DNA from: Acidobacteriota bacterium | GTDB lineage: Bacteria > Acidobacteriota > UBA6911 > RPQK01 > JAJDTT01 | NCBI GenBank assembly: GCA_028874215.1 | Contig: JAPPLF010000101.1 | Location: forward strand, 1-64,000 | DNA: 64,000 nucleotides | Reading direction: 5' to 3' | Part shown: in pieces, positions 9,198-59,951 of the stretch | How the letters are laid out: the number at the start of each line of letters is the position of its first letter | Position numbering within the stretch: the first letter of the stretch is position 1 | Made by a program: the position numbers and the translations under genes | The notes under the pieces: generated by a model | Database searches by the model: none | What the model was told of the DNA's origin: nothing | The model's input: only the letters and a program-made list of their open reading frames with translations

Positions 9198-9209
9198 TGG
9201 GCGCAGGAG

Positions 9210-9229
9210 GGGGGACTTTCCTGTCCCCC
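9210..9229 (-). repeat. Palindromic repeat, family member 1
   Basis: Stem GGGGGAC/GTCCCCC with loop TTTCCT on the plus strand (AGGAAA on minus). It lies between the DUF58 and BatA-like genes, 12 nt after the DUF58 stop. A CCTCC-like flank follows on the minus strand, as in the other members. Confidence 0.75.
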
Positions 9230-16064: not shown

Positions 16065-16084
16065 CGGCGGTTAGGAAACCGCCG
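16065..16084 (+). repeat. Palindromic repeat, family member 2, overlaps the cinA stop
   Basis: Stem CGGCGGTT/AACCGCCG with loop AGGA, followed by CTCC. It sits between two convergent genes. Its minus-strand loop TCCT plus the next A's supplies the TAA stop of cinA, so the last residues of CinA are encoded by the repeat. Confidence 0.85.
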
Positions 16085-17324
16085 CTCCATCGTCGCCGCG
16101 GAGAAGGTACGTCCGGACCAGGTCGAGGGCATAGAGGCTCGTGCGGGTCCGGTCCGGACGGCCGCGGCCGGCCATCCCGAAACTGCGGGTTTGCATGGTC
16201 CGCCCGTCGGTGACGCAGAAAAAGGATTGGCCTTTCGCCAGGTTCCGGCTCCGATCCTCCGGGTCCGGAATCCCGTGCACGGCCAATCCCAGGTCGGCAT
16301 GGCAGACCGTCCTGAGGGCCCGCGCCAGTTCCCGGGTCCGGAGCTTCGGGTCCGGCATCGGCGCGTCGGATCCCGCCGCCTCCAGGACCCGACGGGCGGA
16401 ATCGGGATCGCCGGCGATGACCCCTTCGACAAAGCGATCCGGATCGGCCAGTTGCAACCGCTCCGCCACCATCCCACCGGTAATGTCCTCGTAGACGGCG
16501 ATCCTCAGATCGGCCCGCCGCAACAGCTCCCCCACCGAATCCTCCATGGATTCCTCGTCGGCGCCGAAAACATGGTGTCCCAACAGGCCGCGGACCTCCT
16601 CCTCCACTGGAGCGATCAACCGCGCGGCCGCTTCCCGGTCGCGGGCTTTGGCGGCGATTCTCACATCCACCTGGCCGGGATGAGCCAGAACTCCCACGGT
16701 GGGGTTGGTGGATTCGGTGATCAGGTGACCGATCAGGTGATCCACGTGGCTCTCCCCCATGGCGGAGACCTTGAGGATGCGATAGACGATGATGCGGTCC
16801 AGGCGAAAGCGTCTCCTGAGACGGGGAATCACCTCATTGTCGAAGAGCCATTTGAGCTCGTGAGGCACTCCCGGAAGAGCGATGACGACGCCTCGCGGGT
16901 CCTCCACGAGGAAAGCGGGGGCGGTGCCGTTGGGGTTGCGGATCGGCACGGCCCCCTGCGGAATATCGGCCTGACGCTCGTTGTTGGCCGTCAGGACAAA
17001 ACCCCGGTTGCGGAACCGGGTGTGGAGCTCCTGCAGCAGATCCGGGTCCCGGACCAGCGTCCGGCCCGTTACCCGGGCGATCACTTCGCGGGTCAGGTCG
17101 TCCCGGGTGGGACCCAGTCCTCCGCCGGTGATCACGATGTCGGACCGATCCAGGGCCCGGCCGATCACCTCCTCCATCCGGCCCGGGTTGTCCCCCACTA
17201 CGGTTTTGTAGAAGAGATCGACGCCCAGCCCGGTCAAACGATCGGCCATCCAGGCCGAGTTGGTATCGACGATCTGACCCAGGAGCAGTTCAGAACCGAT
17301 GGCGACGATCTCCGCGTTGGGCAT
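16071..17324 (-). CDS. cinA: CinA family nicotinamide-nucleotide amidohydrolase
   Basis: Cytoplasmic protein of 417 residues, the usual length of two-domain CinA. The N-terminal MoCF-like domain opens with AEIVAIGSELLLGQIVDTNS and contains ITGGGLGPTRDD (about 77-88). The C-terminal deamidase domain covers about 255-415. CinA hydrolyses the amide of nicotinamide mononucleotide in pyridine nucleotide salvage and was first named for competence induction. The stop codon lies inside a palindromic repeat, so the extreme C-terminus (GAAVS) may be repeat-derived. It is transcribed away from the tRNA gene. Confidence 0.93.
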   Translation of the reverse strand: MPNAEIVAIGSELLLGQIVDTNSAWMADRLTGLGVDLFYKTVVGDNPGRMEEVIGRALDRSDIVITGGGLGPTRDDLTREVIARVTGRTLVRDPDLLQELHTRFRNRGFVLTANNERQADIPQGAVPIRNPNGTAPAFLVEDPRGVVIALPGVPHELKWLFDNEVIPRLRRRFRLDRIIVYRILKVSAMGESHVDHLIGHLITESTNPTVGVLAHPGQVDVRIAAKARDREAAARLIAPVEEEVRGLLGHHVFGADEESMEDSVGELLRRADLRIAVYEDITGGMVAERLQLADPDRFVEGVIAGDPDSARRVLEAAGSDAPMPDPKLRTRELARALRTVCHADLGLAVHGIPDPEDRSRNLAKGQSFFCVTDGRTMQTRSFGMAGRGRPDRTRTSLYALDLVRTYLLRGDDGAAVS

Positions 17325-23555: not shown

Positions 23556-23563
23556 GAGCATAG

Positions 23564-23585
23564 GAGGGGACTCTTCTGTCCCCTC
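23564..23585 (-). repeat. Palindromic repeat, family member 3; likely terminator
   Basis: Stem GAGGGGAC/GTCCCCTC with loop TCTTCT (AGAAGA on minus), then TTTGC. It begins 8 nt after the GWxTD stop and probably ends that transcript. Confidence 0.7.
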
Positions 23586-27794: not shown

Positions 27795-28484
27795 TCAGGA
27801 TGGAGTCTCGGGGATGACCAGAAGCGTCCAGTTTTCCAGCCGCGACCGCTGACGCGCCATTTCTCCCGCCGGCCGCCGCTGATAGGGTCCCTTTACGGGA
27901 TCGTGCACGATCCATTCCCGGCGGGATTCGTCCCAGCCCACCAGCACCACGTAGTGATTGTTGGTCGTCAGGATGGACGGGTCGATCACGGTGATCAGTG
28001 GCCGTCCCTGCCGCAGGTGATCGAGCATTTCGGTCGTGTCGCCGGCGAAGGAGTAGGCCTGGAACCCCTCCGCAGTAGCCAGCTCTTTCAGTTCGAGACC
28101 GCTCAGGCCCTTTTTCGGAAAGGGTTGGAAACGTCCCGCCAACTCACGGTGATCGGCCGGATGTTTCCAATAGCGCAGGAGCATGGCGAGCACGGCGGGA
28201 CCGCAGTAGTTCTCCGCCTGGCGGACATAGGGGACTTCCAGGAAGAATCCCTTGGCGGGCGATTCCTCTTCTGCGTGTACGGTGAGGACCGATAGGGCCA
28301 GCATCAGAATGGAAAGGGCCCAGGCCGGACGCCTCAACAATCCTGTCGGAAAACTGGTGGGAGCGGCGGCTTTCTTGCCGCAGATTCTCGGGAGTGCGGG
28401 CGAAAGAAAGAATGGGCGACAGGAAAGTCGCCCCTCCCAATGGGGGACACGAATGTCCCCCCTCCTGGCGGTTATCCGAATCAC
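27795..28484 (-). CDS. C39-like cysteine peptidase family protein
   Basis: Exported papain-like protein. The Cys site is ENYCGPAVLAMLL, the His site is NNHYVVLVGWD, and the Asp follows in VHDPVKG, so the Cys-His-Asp set is complete (Peptidase_C39_2 type). A GTG at 28484 overlaps the upstream stop as GTGA, but the first 45 or so residues would then translate two palindromic repeats ahead of the signal peptide. A TTG at 28340, directly before RRPAWALSILMLALSVLTV, gives about 181 residues and a normal signal peptide, and is probably the true start. Substrate unknown; bacteriocin-type leader cleavage is known for relatives, but no ABC transporter is fused. Confidence 0.75.
   Translation of the reverse strand: MIRITARRGDIRVPHWEGRLSCRPFFLSPALPRICGKKAAAPTSFPTGLLRRPAWALSILMLALSVLTVHAEEESPAKGFFLEVPYVRQAENYCGPAVLAMLLRYWKHPADHRELAGRFQPFPKKGLSGLELKELATAEGFQAYSFAGDTTEMLDHLRQGRPLITVIDPSILTTNNHYVVLVGWDESRREWIVHDPVKGPYQRRPAGEMARQRSRLENWTLLVIPETPS
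28414..28433 (+). repeat. Palindromic repeat, family member 4
   Basis: Stem GGGCGAC/GTCGCCC with loop AGGAAA, followed by CCTCC. It lies in tandem with the next member and inside the 5' part of the C39-like frame. Confidence 0.85.
28442..28461 (+). repeat. Palindromic repeat, family member 5
   Basis: Stem GGGGGACA/TGTCCCCC with loop CGAA, followed by CCTCC. The stem sequence differs from its neighbour at 28414-28433 while remaining self-complementary. Confidence 0.85.
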
Positions 28485-30270: not shown

Positions 30271-30300
30271 ATCTACCGGATTTCAGGACTTCCGGCCACG

Positions 30301-30323
30301 GAGCGGCGGTTTCCTAGCTGCCC
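30301..30323 (-). repeat. Palindromic repeat, degenerate family member 6
   Basis: GAGCGGCGGTTTCCTAGCTGCCC keeps the 5' half, GAGCGGCGG and TTTCCTA, of the family, but the right arm has changed to AGCTGCC. It lies between the TPR gene and the DUF1501 gene, 34 nt before an intact copy. Confidence 0.55.
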
Positions 30324-30356
30324 GTTCCTCCTCGCTCCAATCATTATTCCAAGAAT

Positions 30357-30375
30357 CGGCGGTTGGAAACCGCCG
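30357..30375 (+). repeat. Palindromic repeat, family member 7
   Basis: Stem CGGCGGTT/AACCGCCG with loop GGA, followed by CTCC. It is the first of two adjacent intact copies downstream of the DUF1501 gene. Confidence 0.85.
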
Positions 30376-30384
30376 CTCCTTCTC

Positions 30385-30401
30385 GGCGATTGGAAATCGT
30401 C
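30385..30401 (+). repeat. Palindromic repeat, family member 8
   Basis: Stem GGCGATT/AATCGTC with loop GGA, followed by CCTCC. One position is a G-T (G-U in RNA) pair, which supports pairing in RNA. It ends 11 nt from the DUF1501 stop. Confidence 0.8.
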
Positions 30402-30411
30402 CCTCCAAGGT

Positions 30412-31896
30412 TCAAGCCAAAAGCTTGGTCACCACCTCGCCGCCCACGTCGGTCAGCCGGAAGTCTCGTCCCTGAAAGCGGTGGGTCAACCGGAGGTGGT
30501 CGATGCCGAAGAGATGGAGGATCGTGGCGTGGAAGTCATTGATGGAGACGGGCTCCTCCTCGACTCCCCAGCCGATGTCGTCCGTCCTGCCGATGACCTG
30601 TCCTCCCTGGATGCCACCGCCGGCCATGAAGACGCTGAAGGCGAAGGGGTGGTGATCCCGGCCGGTGTTGATTTCCTCTTCTCCTCCGTTGTTCTCCGCC
30701 AACGGGGTCCGGCCGAATTCCGCGGCCCAGACGACCAGCGTCTCGTCCAGCATGCCGCGCTGCTTCAAGTCCTGAATGAGCGCGGCCACCGGCTGGTCGA
30801 CGATCCCGCAGTTGGTGGGCAATTGTTTGTCCAGACTGCTGTGATGATCCCATGAGGCGTGATAGATGTTGACGAATCGTACGCCCCGTTCCACCAGGCG
30901 GCGGGCCAACAGGCAGTTGCGTGCGTAGCTGCCGAACACCCCATTGGTGAAGCCGCGTCCCCGACTGCCGTCGGGATCCTTCCGGTTGACCCCGTACATC
31001 TCCAAGGTCTTCTCGCTTTCCTGGGAGAGGTCGATGAGTTCCGGCGTCGCTGACTGCATCCGGTACGCCAGCTCATAGGAGGCGATTCGAGACAGGATCT
31101 CGGGGTCGCGGGCCTGCTTGTAGTGCTGCCGGTTGAGCTGTTTCAGCGCCTCCAGGCTCCGGCGCTGGCATTCGTGCGGCAGGCCCTCAGGATTGGACAG
31201 GTGCAGCACCGGGTCTCCCTGGTTTCGGAAGAGCACCCCCTCGTAGCTCGAAGGCAGGAAGCCGCTGGACCAGTTGGAGGCGCCGCCGCTGGTCCCCCTG
31301 CCGGCCGTGAGCACGACGTAGCCCGGCAGGTCCTCCGACTCGCTGCCCAGCCCGTAGTTGATCCAGGAGCCCATCGACGGACGGCCGAAGGTGGGCACTC
31401 CCGAATTCATCATCAACTGTCCCGGATGATGGTTGAAGGCCTCGGTGTGCATGGACCGGATCAAGGCGATGTCGTCGGCGCAGCCGCCGATATGGGGCAG
31501 GTATTCGGAGATCCTGATGCCCGATTCGCCATGTTTGGGAAACTTGGCATTGCTGCCCATCAGCACCGCCGACTCCTTTTTGATGAAGGCGAACCGGACC
31601 TTCTCCAGCATGGACTCGGGCATGGGTTGGCCGTTCAGCTCCGTCAGTTTCGGCTTGGGATCGAAGAGGTCGATCTGGCTGGGAGCGCCCGCCATGAATA
31701 GGAATATGCAGCTCTTGGCCTTGGCCGGGAAATGGGTCGACGTCATCTGCTGTCCCAGGGTTCCGGCGGCATTCGCCTGCCCCAGGAGTCCCTTCTCCGC
31801 CAGCATCGTCGTCAGCGCGATACCGCCCAGACCGCTGGCGCTGCTGGTCAGGAAGTCTCGACGCGATTCCAGAATTTTTTCCCTCAAAGAACTCAT
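30412..31896 (-). CDS. DUF1501 domain protein (Tat-exported)
   Basis: Protein of 494 residues with a twin-arginine-type start (LESRRDFLTSSASGLGG) and the DUF1501 core: IFLFMAGAPSQIDLFDPKP near 60-78 and the later VVWAAEFGRTPLAENNG near 398-414. DUF1501 proteins have an alkaline-phosphatase/sulfatase-like fold and are almost always paired with DUF1549/DUF1553 proteins, as here, where the partner ends 3 nt upstream. Their substrate is not known; polysaccharide-linked roles are proposed in planctomycetes. Confidence 0.9.
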   Translation of the reverse strand: MSSLREKILESRRDFLTSSASGLGGIALTTMLAEKGLLGQANAAGTLGQQMTSTHFPAKAKSCIFLFMAGAPSQIDLFDPKPKLTELNGQPMPESMLEKVRFAFIKKESAVLMGSNAKFPKHGESGIRISEYLPHIGGCADDIALIRSMHTEAFNHHPGQLMMNSGVPTFGRPSMGSWINYGLGSESEDLPGYVVLTAGRGTSGGASNWSSGFLPSSYEGVLFRNQGDPVLHLSNPEGLPHECQRRSLEALKQLNRQHYKQARDPEILSRIASYELAYRMQSATPELIDLSQESEKTLEMYGVNRKDPDGSRGRGFTNGVFGSYARNCLLARRLVERGVRFVNIYHASWDHHSSLDKQLPTNCGIVDQPVAALIQDLKQRGMLDETLVVWAAEFGRTPLAENNGGEEEINTGRDHHPFAFSVFMAGGGIQGGQVIGRTDDIGWGVEEEPVSINDFHATILHLFGIDHLRLTHRFQGRDFRLTDVGGEVVTKLLA

Positions 31897-42352: not shown

Positions 42353-42358
42353 GAGGAG

Positions 42359-42377
42359 CGGCGGTTTCCAACCGCCG
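42359..42377 (-). repeat. Palindromic repeat, family member 9
   Basis: Stem CGGCGGTT/AACCGCCG with plus-strand loop TCC (GGA on minus). It starts 7 nt after the DUF1501 stop, between convergent genes. Confidence 0.85.
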
Positions 42378-42403
42378 ATTCCCAAGGAACACTGAAGAAC
42401 AGA

Positions 42404-42423
42404 GGGGGACAGGAATGCCCCCC
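42404..42423 (+). repeat. Palindromic repeat, family member 10
   Basis: GGGGGACA pairs with TGCCCCCC round GGAA, with one A-C mismatch that a single transition would create. It is followed by CTTCC and lies before the stop of the multihaem TPR gene. Confidence 0.75.
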
Positions 42424-42435
42424 TTCCTTTCGCCT

Positions 42436-51018: not shown

Positions 51019-51049
51019 ATTCTCCTCAGTGATGTGGAGGACTCGGAGT

Positions 51050-51064
51050 GGGGACTCCGTCCCC
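51050..51064 (-). repeat. Palindromic repeat, family member 11
   Basis: Stem GGGGAC/GTCCCC with plus-strand loop TCC (GGA on minus). First of three copies between the sulfatase and oxidoreductase genes. Confidence 0.75.
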
Positions 51065-51077
51065 CCTGCCCCCCTGT

Positions 51078-51097
51078 CGGCGGCAAGGATGCCGCCG
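51078..51097 (+). repeat. Palindromic repeat, family member 12
   Basis: Stem CGGCGGCA/TGCCGCCG with loop AGGA, followed by CTCC. Second of three adjacent copies; its stem differs at the last two pairs from members 2, 7 and 9. Confidence 0.85.
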
Positions 51098-51105
51098 CTC
51101 CTTTT

Positions 51106-51124
51106 CGGCGATTAGAAATCGCCG
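51106..51124 (+). repeat. Palindromic repeat, family member 13
   Basis: Stem CGGCGATT/AATCGCCG with loop AGA, followed by CTCC. It ends 4 nt before the minus-strand sulfatase stop. Confidence 0.85.
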
Positions 51125-51127
51125 CTC

Positions 51128-52456
51128 CTACTGGTCTACGTCCTGCTCCCAGTTCGCGTACAGGCGCTTGATTTCTTCCACGAGTTCCGGCTTTTCGTAG
51201 GTCAGTGTCTGACGCTCACTCGGATCGGTCCTCAGATCGAACAACATGTCCACCTGCTCAACGCCGTCCAGGACGTACTTCCAGTGCCCCTTGCGGACCG
51301 CCTTCTGTACGTAGCACTGCCAGTAGGGCCGCTGTGGATTGCATTCGCCCACGAACTTGACGCGCCAGAAGAAGGTGCGCTCCTGTGGAGGTTTCTCTCC
51401 GCTCAGGATGGGGAGGATGTCGATGCCGTCCAAGGTGCGTCCCTCCGGAGGGGCGCTCCCCGTGGCCGCCAGGATGGTGGCCGAATAATCCATGGTGATG
51501 ACCGCCTGATCGGAGGTCTTGCCGGCCGGGAGGCGCTTCGGCCAACGGACCAGGCCGGGGACTCGAATCCCGCCCTCCCACAATGTGGCCTTGTGATTGA
51601 AAAAAGGTGCGGTGCGCGAGAGGCGCTCGCCTCCGTTGTCGCTGGTGAAGATGACCAGGGTGTTGGAAGCCAGACCCTTCCGGTCGAGCACATCCAGAAT
51701 TTCGCCGACCCCGTCGTCGATTGCCTCGACCATGCCGTTGTAGTCCTCGCGGGTCCCTTCCAGCCGATTTTCCGCCGTCGCAACCCAGCGCCGGTTCGGT
51801 GGCTGGAACGGCCAGTGAGGTGCGTTGTAGGAGACGAAGAGGAAGAACGGCTTGCCCGCGTGGCGTTCGATGAAGTCGACGGACCGCTCGGTGATGAGAT
51901 GGGTCATGTACCCATCTTTCTTCACCGGTTTGGTGTTTTCGTAGAGATCGGGGAAACCTCTCTCCGGGATCACTTCGCGATGGGTGTAGAAATCGATGTT
52001 TGCACCCAGGAAACCAAAAAACTCATCGAATCCGTGGGCATTCGGTCCCGTCTCGGGGGTGATTCCCACGTGCCACTTCCCCATCAGTCCCGTCGCATAG
52101 CCGTTGTTCTTCACCATCCTGGCCACGGATGTCTCCGACGTGGACAGTCCCGGAGAACCCGCGCCCGCGAACGCCCATTCGATCCCACTACGCTGTTGGT
52201 AGCGTCCGGTAAGAAAAGCGATGCGCGTCGGCGTGCACACCGGGGCCGCCGCGTAATTGTCCGTGAGTTTGACTCCCTCCCGAGCCATGCGGTCCAGGTG
52301 AGGGGTTTGGAGATCCGTGGCGCCGTAGGGCCCCACGTCGCCATATCCCATATCGTCGACCAGAATGAAGATAACGTTCGGTTTGTCACCGGCTTCAGCG
52401 TCCGGCTGTATGGAGACGGCGAGCAAGAGACCGAATATCGTCGAGCACCACTTCAT
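51128..52456 (-). CDS. Secreted sulfatase
   Basis: Type I sulfatase of 442 residues from ATG 52456 with a signal peptide (STIFGLLLAVSIQPDAEA). The metal site is ILVDDMGYGDVGPYG and the formylglycine site CTPTRIAFLTGRY (C-x-P-x-R). FTSDNGGER and GKWHVGI complete the active site. The frame stays open upstream into the neighbouring gene, but that stretch is antisense to the oxidoreductase at 52580 and is not coding. It diverges from the isomerase/aldolase operon by 123 nt. Like the sulfatase at 46969, it needs a maturase encoded elsewhere. Confidence 0.9.
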   Translation of the reverse strand: MKWCSTIFGLLLAVSIQPDAEAGDKPNVIFILVDDMGYGDVGPYGATDLQTPHLDRMAREGVKLTDNYAAAPVCTPTRIAFLTGRYQQRSGIEWAFAGAGSPGLSTSETSVARMVKNNGYATGLMGKWHVGITPETGPNAHGFDEFFGFLGANIDFYTHREVIPERGFPDLYENTKPVKKDGYMTHLITERSVDFIERHAGKPFFLFVSYNAPHWPFQPPNRRWVATAENRLEGTREDYNGMVEAIDDGVGEILDVLDRKGLASNTLVIFTSDNGGERLSRTAPFFNHKATLWEGGIRVPGLVRWPKRLPAGKTSDQAVITMDYSATILAATGSAPPEGRTLDGIDILPILSGEKPPQERTFFWRVKFVGECNPQRPYWQCYVQKAVRKGHWKYVLDGVEQVDMLFDLRTDPSERQTLTYEKPELVEEIKRLYANWEQDVDQ

Positions 52457-56414: not shown

Positions 56415-58127
56415 ATGAATGATTCCGAGGCCGAGACCTGCGACCTCGGCGTCTTCTCCATACGCCCTCCCCGGCTGCCGCTCCTCTTCCTGGCGGCGTT
56501 CCTGACTAGTGGATTGTCGGCGAGCGGAACCGCCGCGCCAAGAACCGATCTCTTCACCAAAATCCCCTCCTCCAGCAGCGGCATCGTCTGGGTGCACGAG
56601 AACGCCATGTCGGAGATGCGCCATCTCCCGGAAACGCTGGGGCCCGGCTGCGCCTTTTTCGATTACGACAACGACGGGTGGGTGGACCTCTACCTGGTGA
56701 ACACCGGTCCCTCCGATTTCTTCAAGCCCGGGAAGAGTCCCGGCAACGCACTCTACCGGAACAACGGCGACGGGACCTTCAGCAACATGACCCAAAAGGC
56801 GGGAGTCGCCGCCGGCAGTTTCGGAATGGGGGCCGCCGCCGCCGATTACGACAACGACGGAGACGCCGATCTTTACGTCACCGCCTACGGCCGCGCCATT
56901 CTCTACGAGAACCAGGGGGATGGAACCTTCCGGGACGTCACCCAAAGCGCCGGACTGGCCGCTCCCGGTTGGACGACCAGCGCCGCGTGGTTCGACTTCG
57001 ATGGCGACGGATGGCTCGACCTGTTCGTCTGCAGCTTCGTCAAATACCAGGTCGACAACCCGGTGCGATGCGGAAACAACCAGTTGGGCAAGAACTACTA
57101 CTGCATCCCCACCTTCTTCGAACCGACGCCGAGCCTGCTTTTCCGAAACAAAGGCGACGGCACCTTCGCCGACATCGGAGCCGCGAGCGACATCGGCCGG
57201 TCACTGGGAAAGGCGCTGGGGGTCGTCGCCACCGACGTCAACAACGACCGCAGGATGGATCTCTTCGTCGCCAACGACACGGTCCAGAACTTCCTCTTCG
57301 TCAACCGGGGAGACGGCCGGTGGGACGAGGTCGGCTTCCTCGCCGAGGTGGGGTTCAGCGCCAACGGGAAGGCGCGCTCCGGGATGGGCGTCGATGCCGC
57401 CGACTACGACCAGGACGGCCGGCAGGACCTGTTCGTGGCCAACGTGGACCAGGAGATGTTCGCCCTCTACCGGAATCAGGGAAACGAGTTGTTCCGGGAC
57501 CTCTCCCATCCCAACCAGGTGGCTCAGTCCACCCGGTTCCTGAGCGGCTGGGGACTGAAATTTCTGGACTTCGACGTGGATGGGGACATGGACCTGTTCC
57601 TGGCCAACGGGCATCCCGACGACATGATCGCCTCCTATTCCCTGCAGGTCACCTACGCCATGCCGCTGCTGCTTTTCGAGAACGTGGACGGCAAGTTCAG
57701 GGACATCAGCGAGGGGGCGGGCGCCGTCTTCGCGGAGAAGTATCCGGCTCGCGGGATGACGGTGGGCGATTTCGACAATGATGGGAGAGTCGACGTTCTG
57801 GTGGCCAACAACGGGCAGGCGCCCGTGCTGCTACGGAACCGGTGGGGGGACGGCAACCACTGGATCGGCTTGACACTGGTGGGCAGGAACTGCAATCGGG
57901 ACGCCATCGGTGCGGTGATCCGGTGGTCCGCCGGGGGAGTGGTCCGGAGCCGTTTGAAGACGAGTGGCGGTAGCTATTTGGCGTCCCATGATCCGCGCGA
58001 GGTGTTGGGGTTGGGCCAGGCGAGCAAGCTGGACTGGGTCGAGATTCATTGGCCGGCTCCCAGCGACCGGGTCCAGAGGCTCAAGAATCTGCCGATCGAC
58101 GCGTATATGACGATCACGGAGGAATAG
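56415..58127 (+). CDS. CRTAC1/ASPIC-UnbV FG-GAP repeat protein
   Basis: Secreted protein of 570 residues from ATG 56415 with a signal-like stretch ([18 protein letters not shown]). Repeated FG-GAP/calcium-binding motifs recur ([32 protein letters not shown]), building a seven-bladed propeller. The C-terminus is ASPIC/UnbV-like ([20 protein letters not shown] and ILGLGQ-type ending). CRTAC1 proteins are numerous in acidobacteria and usually lie beside TPR proteins; the function is probably surface binding. It is convergent with a second CRTAC1 gene, with two palindromes between them. Confidence 0.9.
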
Positions 58128-58138
58128 TGGGAGCGGAG

Positions 58139-58158
58139 CGGCGGTTTCCTAACCGCCG
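58139..58158 (-). repeat. Palindromic repeat, family member 14
   Basis: Stem CGGCGGTT/AACCGCCG with plus-strand loop TCCT (AGGA on minus). It starts 12 nt after the upstream CRTAC1 stop, between convergent genes. Confidence 0.85.
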
Positions 58159-58179
58159 ATTCATGGAATGAGGGGAAAC

Positions 58180-58198
58180 GGACGATTGGAAATCGCCC
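58180..58198 (+). repeat. Palindromic repeat, family member 15
   Basis: GGACGATT pairs with AATCGCCC round GGA with a single A-C mismatch, followed by CTCC. It ends 14 nt before the minus-strand CRTAC1 stop. Confidence 0.75.
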
Positions 58199-58211
58199 CT
58201 CCTCATTCTCC

Positions 58212-59951
58212 TCACTCGCAGATTTGCCCGCTTCCCCTCTGGAGCGTGACGTATCGATCGGCTTCTAGTCCGCTCCAACCTTCACACAGACCGTCGGGCC
58301 AATGGACCTCCACCCGGTCCACGTCCTTCGATGAACCCAACCCGAAGAGGATTCGGCTGTCGTTGGCGCTGAGATAGCTCCCGTCGGCGTGGCAGCGGCG
58401 CCACAGAGGCTTGCGGCCCTTCCGGAACAACGCGACCCGGGCTTGGTAGACGGTCAACGGAGTACCCCGCTCTCCAACCAGCCGGACGCCCAGCCAATGA
58501 TTGCGGGAGCCGATCTGGTTGAGCAGCAGGCGGGCCGGCCCGTTGTTGTTGGAAACGGCGATGTCCATGTCCCCGTCGTTGTCGATGTCGCCGAAGGCGG
58601 CGCCCCGGCTGACTTCCACGAGATCCAGCGCCGAACCCGCAACGTCGGATCCAACCTCCCGAGACCGGCCGGTACCGTCGCCCCGGAAGAGCTGGTTCTC
58701 CTGCGCGTACGGGTAGGGTGAATCGGCCGGCTGACGATCGTCCATGACCACGGCTCCATTGGCCACGAAGAGGTCCAGCCACCCGTCGTTGTCGTAGTCG
58801 AACCAGAGCGTGCCGAATCCGGAATAGGGGACACTTGGATTGGCCAGCCCGAAGCGGGAAGTGACGTCCGCGAATCCCGTTCGCCGTCCATTCAGATAGA
58901 GGGTGTTGGTCTCCTTCTTGTTGTGGGTCACGAAGAGGTCGTCGTCCCCGTCGCCGTCGAAATCGGCGGCCGTGACGCCCATGCCCGCCTCGGCCATGCC
59001 GTCGATGTTGTACGCGGTTCCGGACACCAGGCCCTGGTCCAGGAAGGTCCCGTCCCCCTGGTTGATCCACAACTGATTGGGGGTCCCGTCGTTGGCGACG
59101 TAGACGTCCACGCGGCGATCGAGATCCAGATCGACGGCCACGACCCCGAGACCGGCTCCGAAGGCCCGGCCCAGACCGGCCTCCTCCGACCGGTCGGTGT
59201 ATCTTCCGTCGCCTTCGTTGCGAAAGAGTCGGTCGGGCAACGGCTGGTAGACATCGGGTGCGCAGTAGTCCCGGCGCTCCCCGCCGCATCTGCGGTTCCC
59301 CTGGATGGTGAAGGAGACATAGTTGGCGACGTAAAGGTCCAGGTCGCCGTCGGAATCGTAATCGAGAAAGGTGCTGCTGGCGCTGTACCGGGGATCGTCC
59401 ACTCCGGCGTCGCGGGTCACGTCGATGAAGGTCCCGTCGCCTTCGTTGCGGTACAGAACATTGGAGCCGAAGTTGGTCAGGTAAAGGTCCAGGTCGCCGT
59501 CGTTGTCGTAGTCTCCGACGGCCATGCCCATGCCGTAGCCCGGATGGCCAACCCCGGCCTCACGGGTGACGTCGATGAACCGGAGCTTCCCAGTCGGAAT
59601 CAGTTCATTGCGGAACAGCCGGTTCCGGGGCGGCCCCTCTCCATAAAAGGGGAACGACGATTGGGACACCTCCTTCGAACGGTCCAGCATCGCTCCCTGG
59701 ACGAAATAGAGGTCCAGGTCCCCGTCGCCGTCATAGTCGAACATCCCCACTCCCGATCCCATGATCTCGGGTAAGAAATATTCGCCAGTCGCTCCAATGA
59801 AATGGTGAAAGTCCAGACCTGTCTCCCGCGCGGCTTCCCGAAAGACAGGTGGACCGGAAGCGGAAACGACCCGGGAGAGAAAACAGAAACCCAAGAGCCC
59901 AACGGTCACGGAAAATCGTACGGGAGCGGAAAGCGGCTTCCTAATTCCCAT
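58212..59951 (-). CDS. CRTAC1/ASPIC-UnbV FG-GAP repeat protein
   Basis: Secreted protein of 579 residues with a signal peptide (FSVTVGLLGFCFLSRVVSASG). FG-GAP/calcium motifs recur (MFDYDGDGDLDLYFV, VGDYDNDGDLDLYLT, DYDSDGDLDLYVANY) and the C-terminus is ASPIC/UnbV-like (NHWLGVRLVGERG, VEVHWPDGLCEGWSGLE). It overlaps the upstream TPR gene by 11 nt, so the pair is translationally coupled. It is a paralogue-like neighbour of the gene at 56415, arranged tail to tail. Confidence 0.9.
   Translation of the reverse strand: MGIRKPLSAPVRFSVTVGLLGFCFLSRVVSASGPPVFREAARETGLDFHHFIGATGEYFLPEIMGSGVGMFDYDGDGDLDLYFVQGAMLDRSKEVSQSSFPFYGEGPPRNRLFRNELIPTGKLRFIDVTREAGVGHPGYGMGMAVGDYDNDGDLDLYLTNFGSNVLYRNEGDGTFIDVTRDAGVDDPRYSASSTFLDYDSDGDLDLYVANYVSFTIQGNRRCGGERRDYCAPDVYQPLPDRLFRNEGDGRYTDRSEEAGLGRAFGAGLGVVAVDLDLDRRVDVYVANDGTPNQLWINQGDGTFLDQGLVSGTAYNIDGMAEAGMGVTAADFDGDGDDDLFVTHNKKETNTLYLNGRRTGFADVTSRFGLANPSVPYSGFGTLWFDYDNDGWLDLFVANGAVVMDDRQPADSPYPYAQENQLFRGDGTGRSREVGSDVAGSALDLVEVSRGAAFGDIDNDGDMDIAVSNNNGPARLLLNQIGSRNHWLGVRLVGERGTPLTVYQARVALFRKGRKPLWRRCHADGSYLSANDSRILFGLGSSKDVDRVEVHWPDGLCEGWSGLEADRYVTLQRGSGQICE

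Follow-up and report, generated by a model that had tools for sequence, protein, structure and literature searches.

GGAG-footed hairpins in an Acidobacteriota genus as a probable REP variant linked to RAYT transposases

The window analysed here is a whole stretch of 64,000 nucleotides at the start of contig JAPPLF010000101.1 of an Acidobacteriota bacterium (genome G000 below), and it carries a dispersed set of short hairpins, 15 of which had been listed in an earlier note on the same DNA. The described hairpin is present at all of the 15 coordinates, two of them being degenerate (23564 and 30301), but one further good copy at 28360-28383 had been overlooked. The design given there, a stem around a GGA-type loop and then CTCC, is real, but it was mostly read on the non-native strand, where it is the reverse complement of a GGAG foot, a stem and a TCC, TCCT or TTCC loop. 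On the native strand, the unit consists of 5'-GGAG, followed directly by a hairpin with a 7-8 bp stem and a pyrimidine loop (TCC, TCCT, TTCC or TTCT), for example GGAG-CGGCGGTT-TCC-AACCGCCG. In fact, GGAG is the commonest 4-mer ahead of 7-bp hairpins in the window (13 cases), and the same 4-mer leads among the feet of the 518 perfect hairpins in 464 kb of genome sequence, where it stands at 43 of them with 4.2 expected; GGAA comes second there, and both GGAA and GGGG occur as foot variants. The copies in the window are the following.

9206..9229, + strand: GGAG-footed REP-like hairpin, stem GGGGGACT with a T-T mismatch at pair 8, loop TTCC
16065..16088, - strand: GGAG-footed REP-like hairpin, stem CGGCGGTT; absent from the orthologous interval of G002, which has a different REP-like hairpin elsewhere
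23563..23585, + strand: degenerate GGAG hairpin, GAGGGGAC/GTCCCCTC
28360..28383, + strand: GGAG-footed REP-like hairpin, stem CGGCGGCT; forms the left arm of an inverted doublet that spans 78 bp (28360-28437)
28414..28437, - strand: GGAG-footed REP-like hairpin, stem GGGCGACT; forms the right arm of doublet 28360-28437
28442..28465, - strand: GGAG-footed REP-like hairpin, stem GGGGGACA; head-to-tail with 28414, with a different stem
30300..30326, + strand: degenerate GGAG-footed REP-like hairpin, 3' arm decayed
30357..30379, - strand: GGAG-footed REP-like hairpin, stem CGGCGGTT, perfect consensus
30385..30406, - strand: GGAG-footed REP-like hairpin, partly decayed; carries the G-U pair already seen in the earlier note
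42355..42377, + strand: GGAG-footed REP-like hairpin, stem CGGCGGTT; forms the left arm of an inverted doublet that spans 73 bp (42355-42427)
42404..42427, - strand: GGAA-footed REP-like hairpin, stem GGGGGGCA/TGTCCCCC
51045..51064, + strand: hairpin GGAGT-GGGGAC-TCC-GTCCCC, identical in G000, G002 and G003
51078..51101, - strand: GGAG-footed REP-like hairpin, stem CGGCGGCA; G003 has stem CGGGGGTT at the same position
51106..51128, - strand: GGAG-footed REP-like hairpin, stem CGGCGATT; G003 has stem CGGGGACA at the same position
58135..58158, + strand: GGAG-footed REP-like hairpin, stem CGGCGGTT; forms the left arm of an inverted doublet that spans 68 bp (58135-58202)
58180..58202, - strand: GGAG-footed REP-like hairpin, stem GGGCGATT, one pair mismatched; forms the right arm of doublet 58135-58202

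A DUF1501 protein is also encoded in the window at 30415-31896, with about 40 homologs in the genome at E below 1e-60.

On a larger scale, some 86-87 hairpins are dispersed over ~470-473 kb of genome sequence, far above chance and mostly close to stop codons, and by extrapolation we infer about 1,000 genome-wide; these copy numbers come from pattern and covariance-model (CM) searches plus 473 kb of genome sequence. With a single consensus and up to three mismatches, the genome gives 172 matches and the reversed control none. Many copies form inverted doublets of 68-81 bp with GGAG outermost and partly shared cores, the two arms usually being unlike in stem (as CGGCGGTT with GGGCGATT), and other copies form head-to-tail runs at 27-28 nt spacing, again with different stems among the members. 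The idea of one stem per genome was dropped, since many stems coexist. As to gene context, 50 of the 86 copies in 473 kb are intergenic according to rough ORF calls made by a simple heuristic, compared with about 10% of random positions; convergent gaps are in excess (30% vs 17%) and divergent gaps in deficit (10% vs 17%). Moreover, about half of the tandem and convergent copies start within ~16 nt past the upstream stop codon, which bears out the closeness to stop codons that had been pointed out before.

There are two Y1_Tnp genes in the genome, and one of them, on contig C53, is the single true RAYT there. It has the HUH motif MPNHVH, a single catalytic Tyr in YIRENP and homology to TnpAREP, its best PDB match being E. 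coli TnpAREP 4ER8; it scores above the cut-off of Pfam Y1_Tnp, and reaches 75.1 bits with NCBIfam REP_Tyr_transpos, for which the cut-off is 80. GGAG hairpins lie both upstream and downstream of this gene. The second, divergent Y1_Tnp gene (L002, on C11) has no GGAG hairpins around it and was ruled out as the partner. Orthologs of the RAYT are present in all four genomes of the genus that were compared, one or two in each and 64-72% identical, and 7 of the 7 copies are flanked by GGAG hairpins whose stems are specific to the copy: CGGCGGTT/GGGCGATT in G000, CGGCGTST on G001 C22 and on G002 C15, GGGGGACT/AGGGGGTT on G001 C110, GGGCGGCT at the second copy on G002 C15, GGGGGACA on G003 C444, and GGGCGGTT/CGGCGACA on G003 C477. 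Hairpins and RAYT genes are associated in each of the four genomes. Several stem types of G000, for example GGGGGACA, have no matching resident RAYT, and so are relics or trans-mobilised. At L111 (G002 C15:79521-80073), RAYT homology runs over two frames and is probably decayed; the locus is flanked by REP-like hairpins with stems GGGCGGCT/GGGCGACT/CGGCGGCT.

The distribution of the hairpins follows that of these genes. With a CM search that scored up to 150 candidates per genome, the four genomes G000-G003 have at least 189, 176, 207 and 216 matches respectively, and the 36 other relatives next to none, except 21 weak matches in G019; of the 40 relatives searched, only those in this genus have many copies. 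Counted genome-wide with up to one mismatch, the stem types differ among G000, G001, G002 and G003: CGGCGRTT has 71, 44, 32 and 27 copies, GGGGGACW has 48, 155, 56 and 53, and CGGCGTST has 3, 123, 56 and 6, so that the last is amplified only in the two species having the RAYTs L084 and L085, which are supported sisters.

Around the window, the four species are colinear at an identity of ~90%, and individual sites are seen to turn over. The cluster at 30300-30406 is missing from G001 and G003, which have an interval of ~60 nt there, and the doublet at 58135-58202 is missing from G002; the stems at 51078 and 51106 are replaced in G003 by others, still perfect, that match the RAYT types of G003 itself; the ortholog of 42355 in G002 is an unrelated CGGCGTCT-type array, and that of 86153 an unrelated element, neither core being alignable. 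Altogether 5 of the 13 clean G000 clusters on C101 are empty in G002, and the flanks are intact around empty or replaced sites. Such turnover is the behaviour of mobile DNA and not of a fixed RNA element. A REP-like mobile unit was among the readings offered earlier, and it is the one that the data uphold, by the RAYT flanked by the same hairpins, the inverted doublets, the empty orthologous sites and the abundance that follows RAYT lineages. Two observations may be added for single sites. The hairpin at 51045-51064 stays unchanged while its neighbours are replaced, and may be of greater age or under a constraint of its own. At the ortholog of window 58120-58213 in G002 (L302), the site is occupied by a different palindrome, GTAGGGGCAAACCCTTGTGGTTGCCC, with a GTAG foot, which represents a second family of REP-like elements in these species, and a rare one (one match in 464 kb of G000 and two in 219 kb of G002).

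It had also been claimed that the stems covary, and that compensatory change argues for selection on RNA or cruciform structure. The covariation is real: over 44 distinct copies, the 8-pair stem is paired in 95.5% of cells, where shuffles give 77.3%, its covariation score is 0.519 against 0.213 when shuffled and at most 0.155 with slid partners, and both-sided changes occur at pairs 1, 4, 6, 7 and 8. The conclusion drawn from it is not needed, however, because orthologous stems and cores are swapped wholesale rather than compensated base by base; the stems are REP subfamilies, each beside its own RAYT copy, and the covariation reflects these subfamilies more than the compensatory evolution of one RNA. 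In-place compensatory evolution was considered at 42355 and 86153 and rejected, as the cores there do not align between species. Nevertheless, if recognition by the RAYT required single-stranded DNA folded into a hairpin, there would still be selection on pairing.

That the hairpins are RNA elements selected as transcription terminators or as stabilisers of mRNA 3' ends, with stems covarying for RNA structure, is a reading for which one could cite, besides the strong covariation, the enrichment just past stop codons, the convergent excess and divergent deficit, and the retention of some copies between orthologs, as at 28360-28465 and 51045. We consider it very unlikely. A T-rich tract (8-mer) on either side accompanies only 6-7 of the 86 hairpins, so the U-tract of an intrinsic terminator is lacking in more than 90% of copies, and terminators, which had been proposed before, were rejected for this reason together with the gain and loss of copies between close species. 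Presence, absence and wholesale stem replacement between ~90% identical species and an abundance tracking RAYT lineages also speak against it, inverted doublets and RAYT flanking would be unexpected for terminators, and placement at gene ends is also the published pattern of REPs (PMC3733652). The hairpins may nevertheless have some side effect at the 3' ends of mRNAs. A slightly smaller, quite low probability goes to a purely mutational origin of the covariation, in which template switching, hairpin-templated repair or gene conversion would perfect the palindromes without any selection on structure. The orthologs of 51078 and 51106 would fit it, as they differ at several pairs yet stay perfect next to an unchanged hairpin; but the new stems of each species match the stem type beside its own RAYT, which is to be expected when resident REPs re-insert or serve as donors for conversion, and decayed copies with unrepaired arms do exist (30301 and 30385). 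Such a route could contribute alongside the explanation preferred here.

Compared with known systems, the nearest are the GTAG REPs with their RAYT/TnpAREP genes, or REPtrons, of E. coli, Pseudomonas and Stenotrophomonas (PMC3733652, PMC3686654, PMC8266576), which likewise have a tetranucleotide foot with a 6-9 bp hairpin, a high copy number, gene-end bias, alternative-stem subfamilies and a flanking RAYT gene; for GTAG REPs, subfamilies with alternative complementary stem residues, the gene-end bias and the RAYT association are established (PMC3733652). The present hairpins share with REPs a palindrome directly 3' of the foot, many copies largely at gene ends or intergenic, and a cognate RAYT flanked by the same repeats, but the foot is GGAG, with GGAA and GGGG variants, and not the defining GT[A/G]G, because of which we speak of a variant; besides, the RAYT here has Arg in place of the His101 of E. 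coli. The 68-81 bp doublets agree with the established REPINs (PMC3116915) in being RAYT-linked, dispersed units of two inverted REPs around a short core, whereas their arms are usually unlike in stem. The REPtrons of TnpAY1 class 3 and subclass 2.6, which have atypical feet (PMC6006769), also combine a RAYT-like gene with flanking hairpins lacking GT[A/G]G; class 3, however, is reported to have the foot CnGA and the motif Y----Q (PMC6006769), in contrast with GGAG and YIxxNP here, where the W-x(6)-R-x(2)-R region is intact. CGTC REPs and Rickettsia RPEs (PMC3733652) are also short tagged palindromes, but they are tagged by CGTC, which by foot composition is not the tag of our hairpins, and have no dedicated transposase (PMC3733652). 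GGAG feet were not found in the text of PMC3733652, PMC6006769, PMC2817692 and PMC3686654, though other literature may have them.

Considering all this, it is highly probable that the hairpins are a GGAG-footed variant of REPs, many arranged as REPIN-like doublets, most likely copied by the RAYT, with stems marking RAYT-linked subfamilies. The RAYT (TnpAREP, an HUH/Y1 transposase) would most likely recognise the single-stranded GGAG-plus-hairpin DNA of these non-autonomous elements and copy them to new sites, mostly intergenic gene ends, and each stem subfamily would be tied to a RAYT lineage present now or formerly in the genus; association, co-distribution and the turnover of sites are what the data show, and both the catalysis and the mobility driven by it are what we infer. 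The foot, we propose, would be recognised via the H101-equivalent residue, with His going along with T (GTAG) and Arg with G (GGAG) at position 2. More generally, covarying palindromes can mislead, as they do here, where strong covariation comes from mobile-DNA families that follow their transposases and not from one conserved RNA.

The relation between foot and residue was followed among remote relatives of the RAYT, which have flanking hairpins of their own with feet GTAG, GTGG or GGAG and again pyrimidine loops. In E. coli TnpAREP, H101 is reported among the residues contacting the GTAG guide and noted to be sometimes Arg (PMC6006769). At 117 RAYT loci, where feet were called automatically with hand corrections for L139, L105, L272 and L161, the residue aligned with H101 and foot base 2 correlate: Arg goes with G at 68 loci, His with T at 42, Arg with T at 6 and His with G at one. 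With 7 exceptions among 117, namely the lone His with a G foot (L245) and the Arg with T feet at no fewer than six loci, this is no strict code; even so, residue 101 is the best predictor of foot base 2 among all alignment columns (accuracy 0.90), and a Pagel test for the pair gives LR 33.9 with p 8e-7, the LR being 19 for residue 98, 12 for residue 103 and 2 for residue 95. The fitted rates suggest that His changes to Arg first, and the foot from T to G afterwards. A change of Q95 to E as the foot determinant was rejected, for the paralogs in the genus with GGAG feet keep Q, and the Pagel LR is 2.

That residue 101 causes the foot preference would be our reading of these sequence comparisons. 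Alternatively the elements may be just the same and the correlation may come from phylogenetic hitch-hiking, another part of the RAYT setting the foot. Residues 98, 108 and 112 correlate too, and well-supported independent switches are few: the RAYT tree is poorly resolved, with 3 of 3 well-supported contrasts concordant in a first set and one supported contrast in a larger one, too few for a sign test to be made. Against this stand the rank of residue 101 as the top column while also being one of the few guide-contacting residues in E. coli TnpAREP (PMC6006769), its having the largest Pagel LR among the residues tested, and the small nested switches that are concordant (L146 vs L143; L189 vs L148), so that hitch-hiking appears to us rather improbable, if a serious competitor. 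With regard to the wider claim, we incline slightly towards GGAG-footed REPs being a large class, overlooked until now, that extends over Verrucomicrobiota and other phyla and whose RAYTs would obey a near-one-residue rule: at the second base of the foot, His101 would demand T and Arg101 permit G, the protein changing first and the foot after it. REP surveys used GT[A/G]G feet, and GGAG-footed systems would have escaped them; the very survey that noted H101 or Arg limited its REP search to GT[A/G]G (PMC6006769). A natural series of RAYTs in which a foot base changes along with one contact residue makes the choice of REP by RAYT testable by a single point mutation.

Separately from the above, some 49 out of 196 domains of related RAYTs are embedded in frame in long host ORFs (> 600 aa), and in most of the ORFs scanned host domains are found on both sides of the RAYT domain. 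The hosts are often essential or restriction enzymes, and include LeuRS (L119, L121, L123), PriA (L175, L260), tRNA nucleotidyltransferase (L164, L168), HsdR (L114, L115, L117, L185), Eco57I/MmeI-type methylases (MTases; L087, L120, L132, L142, L163, L172), AMP-binding/acetyl-CoA-synthetase-like proteins (L236, L248, L252, L253, L255), MetH (L184), XseA (L154) and UxaC (L173). Intragenic REPs are known (PMC3733652); for complete RAYT genes lying in frame in essential enzymes, no description was found in the literature searched. These in-frame RAYTs, transposase genes read through together with their REPs, resemble inteins in placement only, and they may merit a study of their own.
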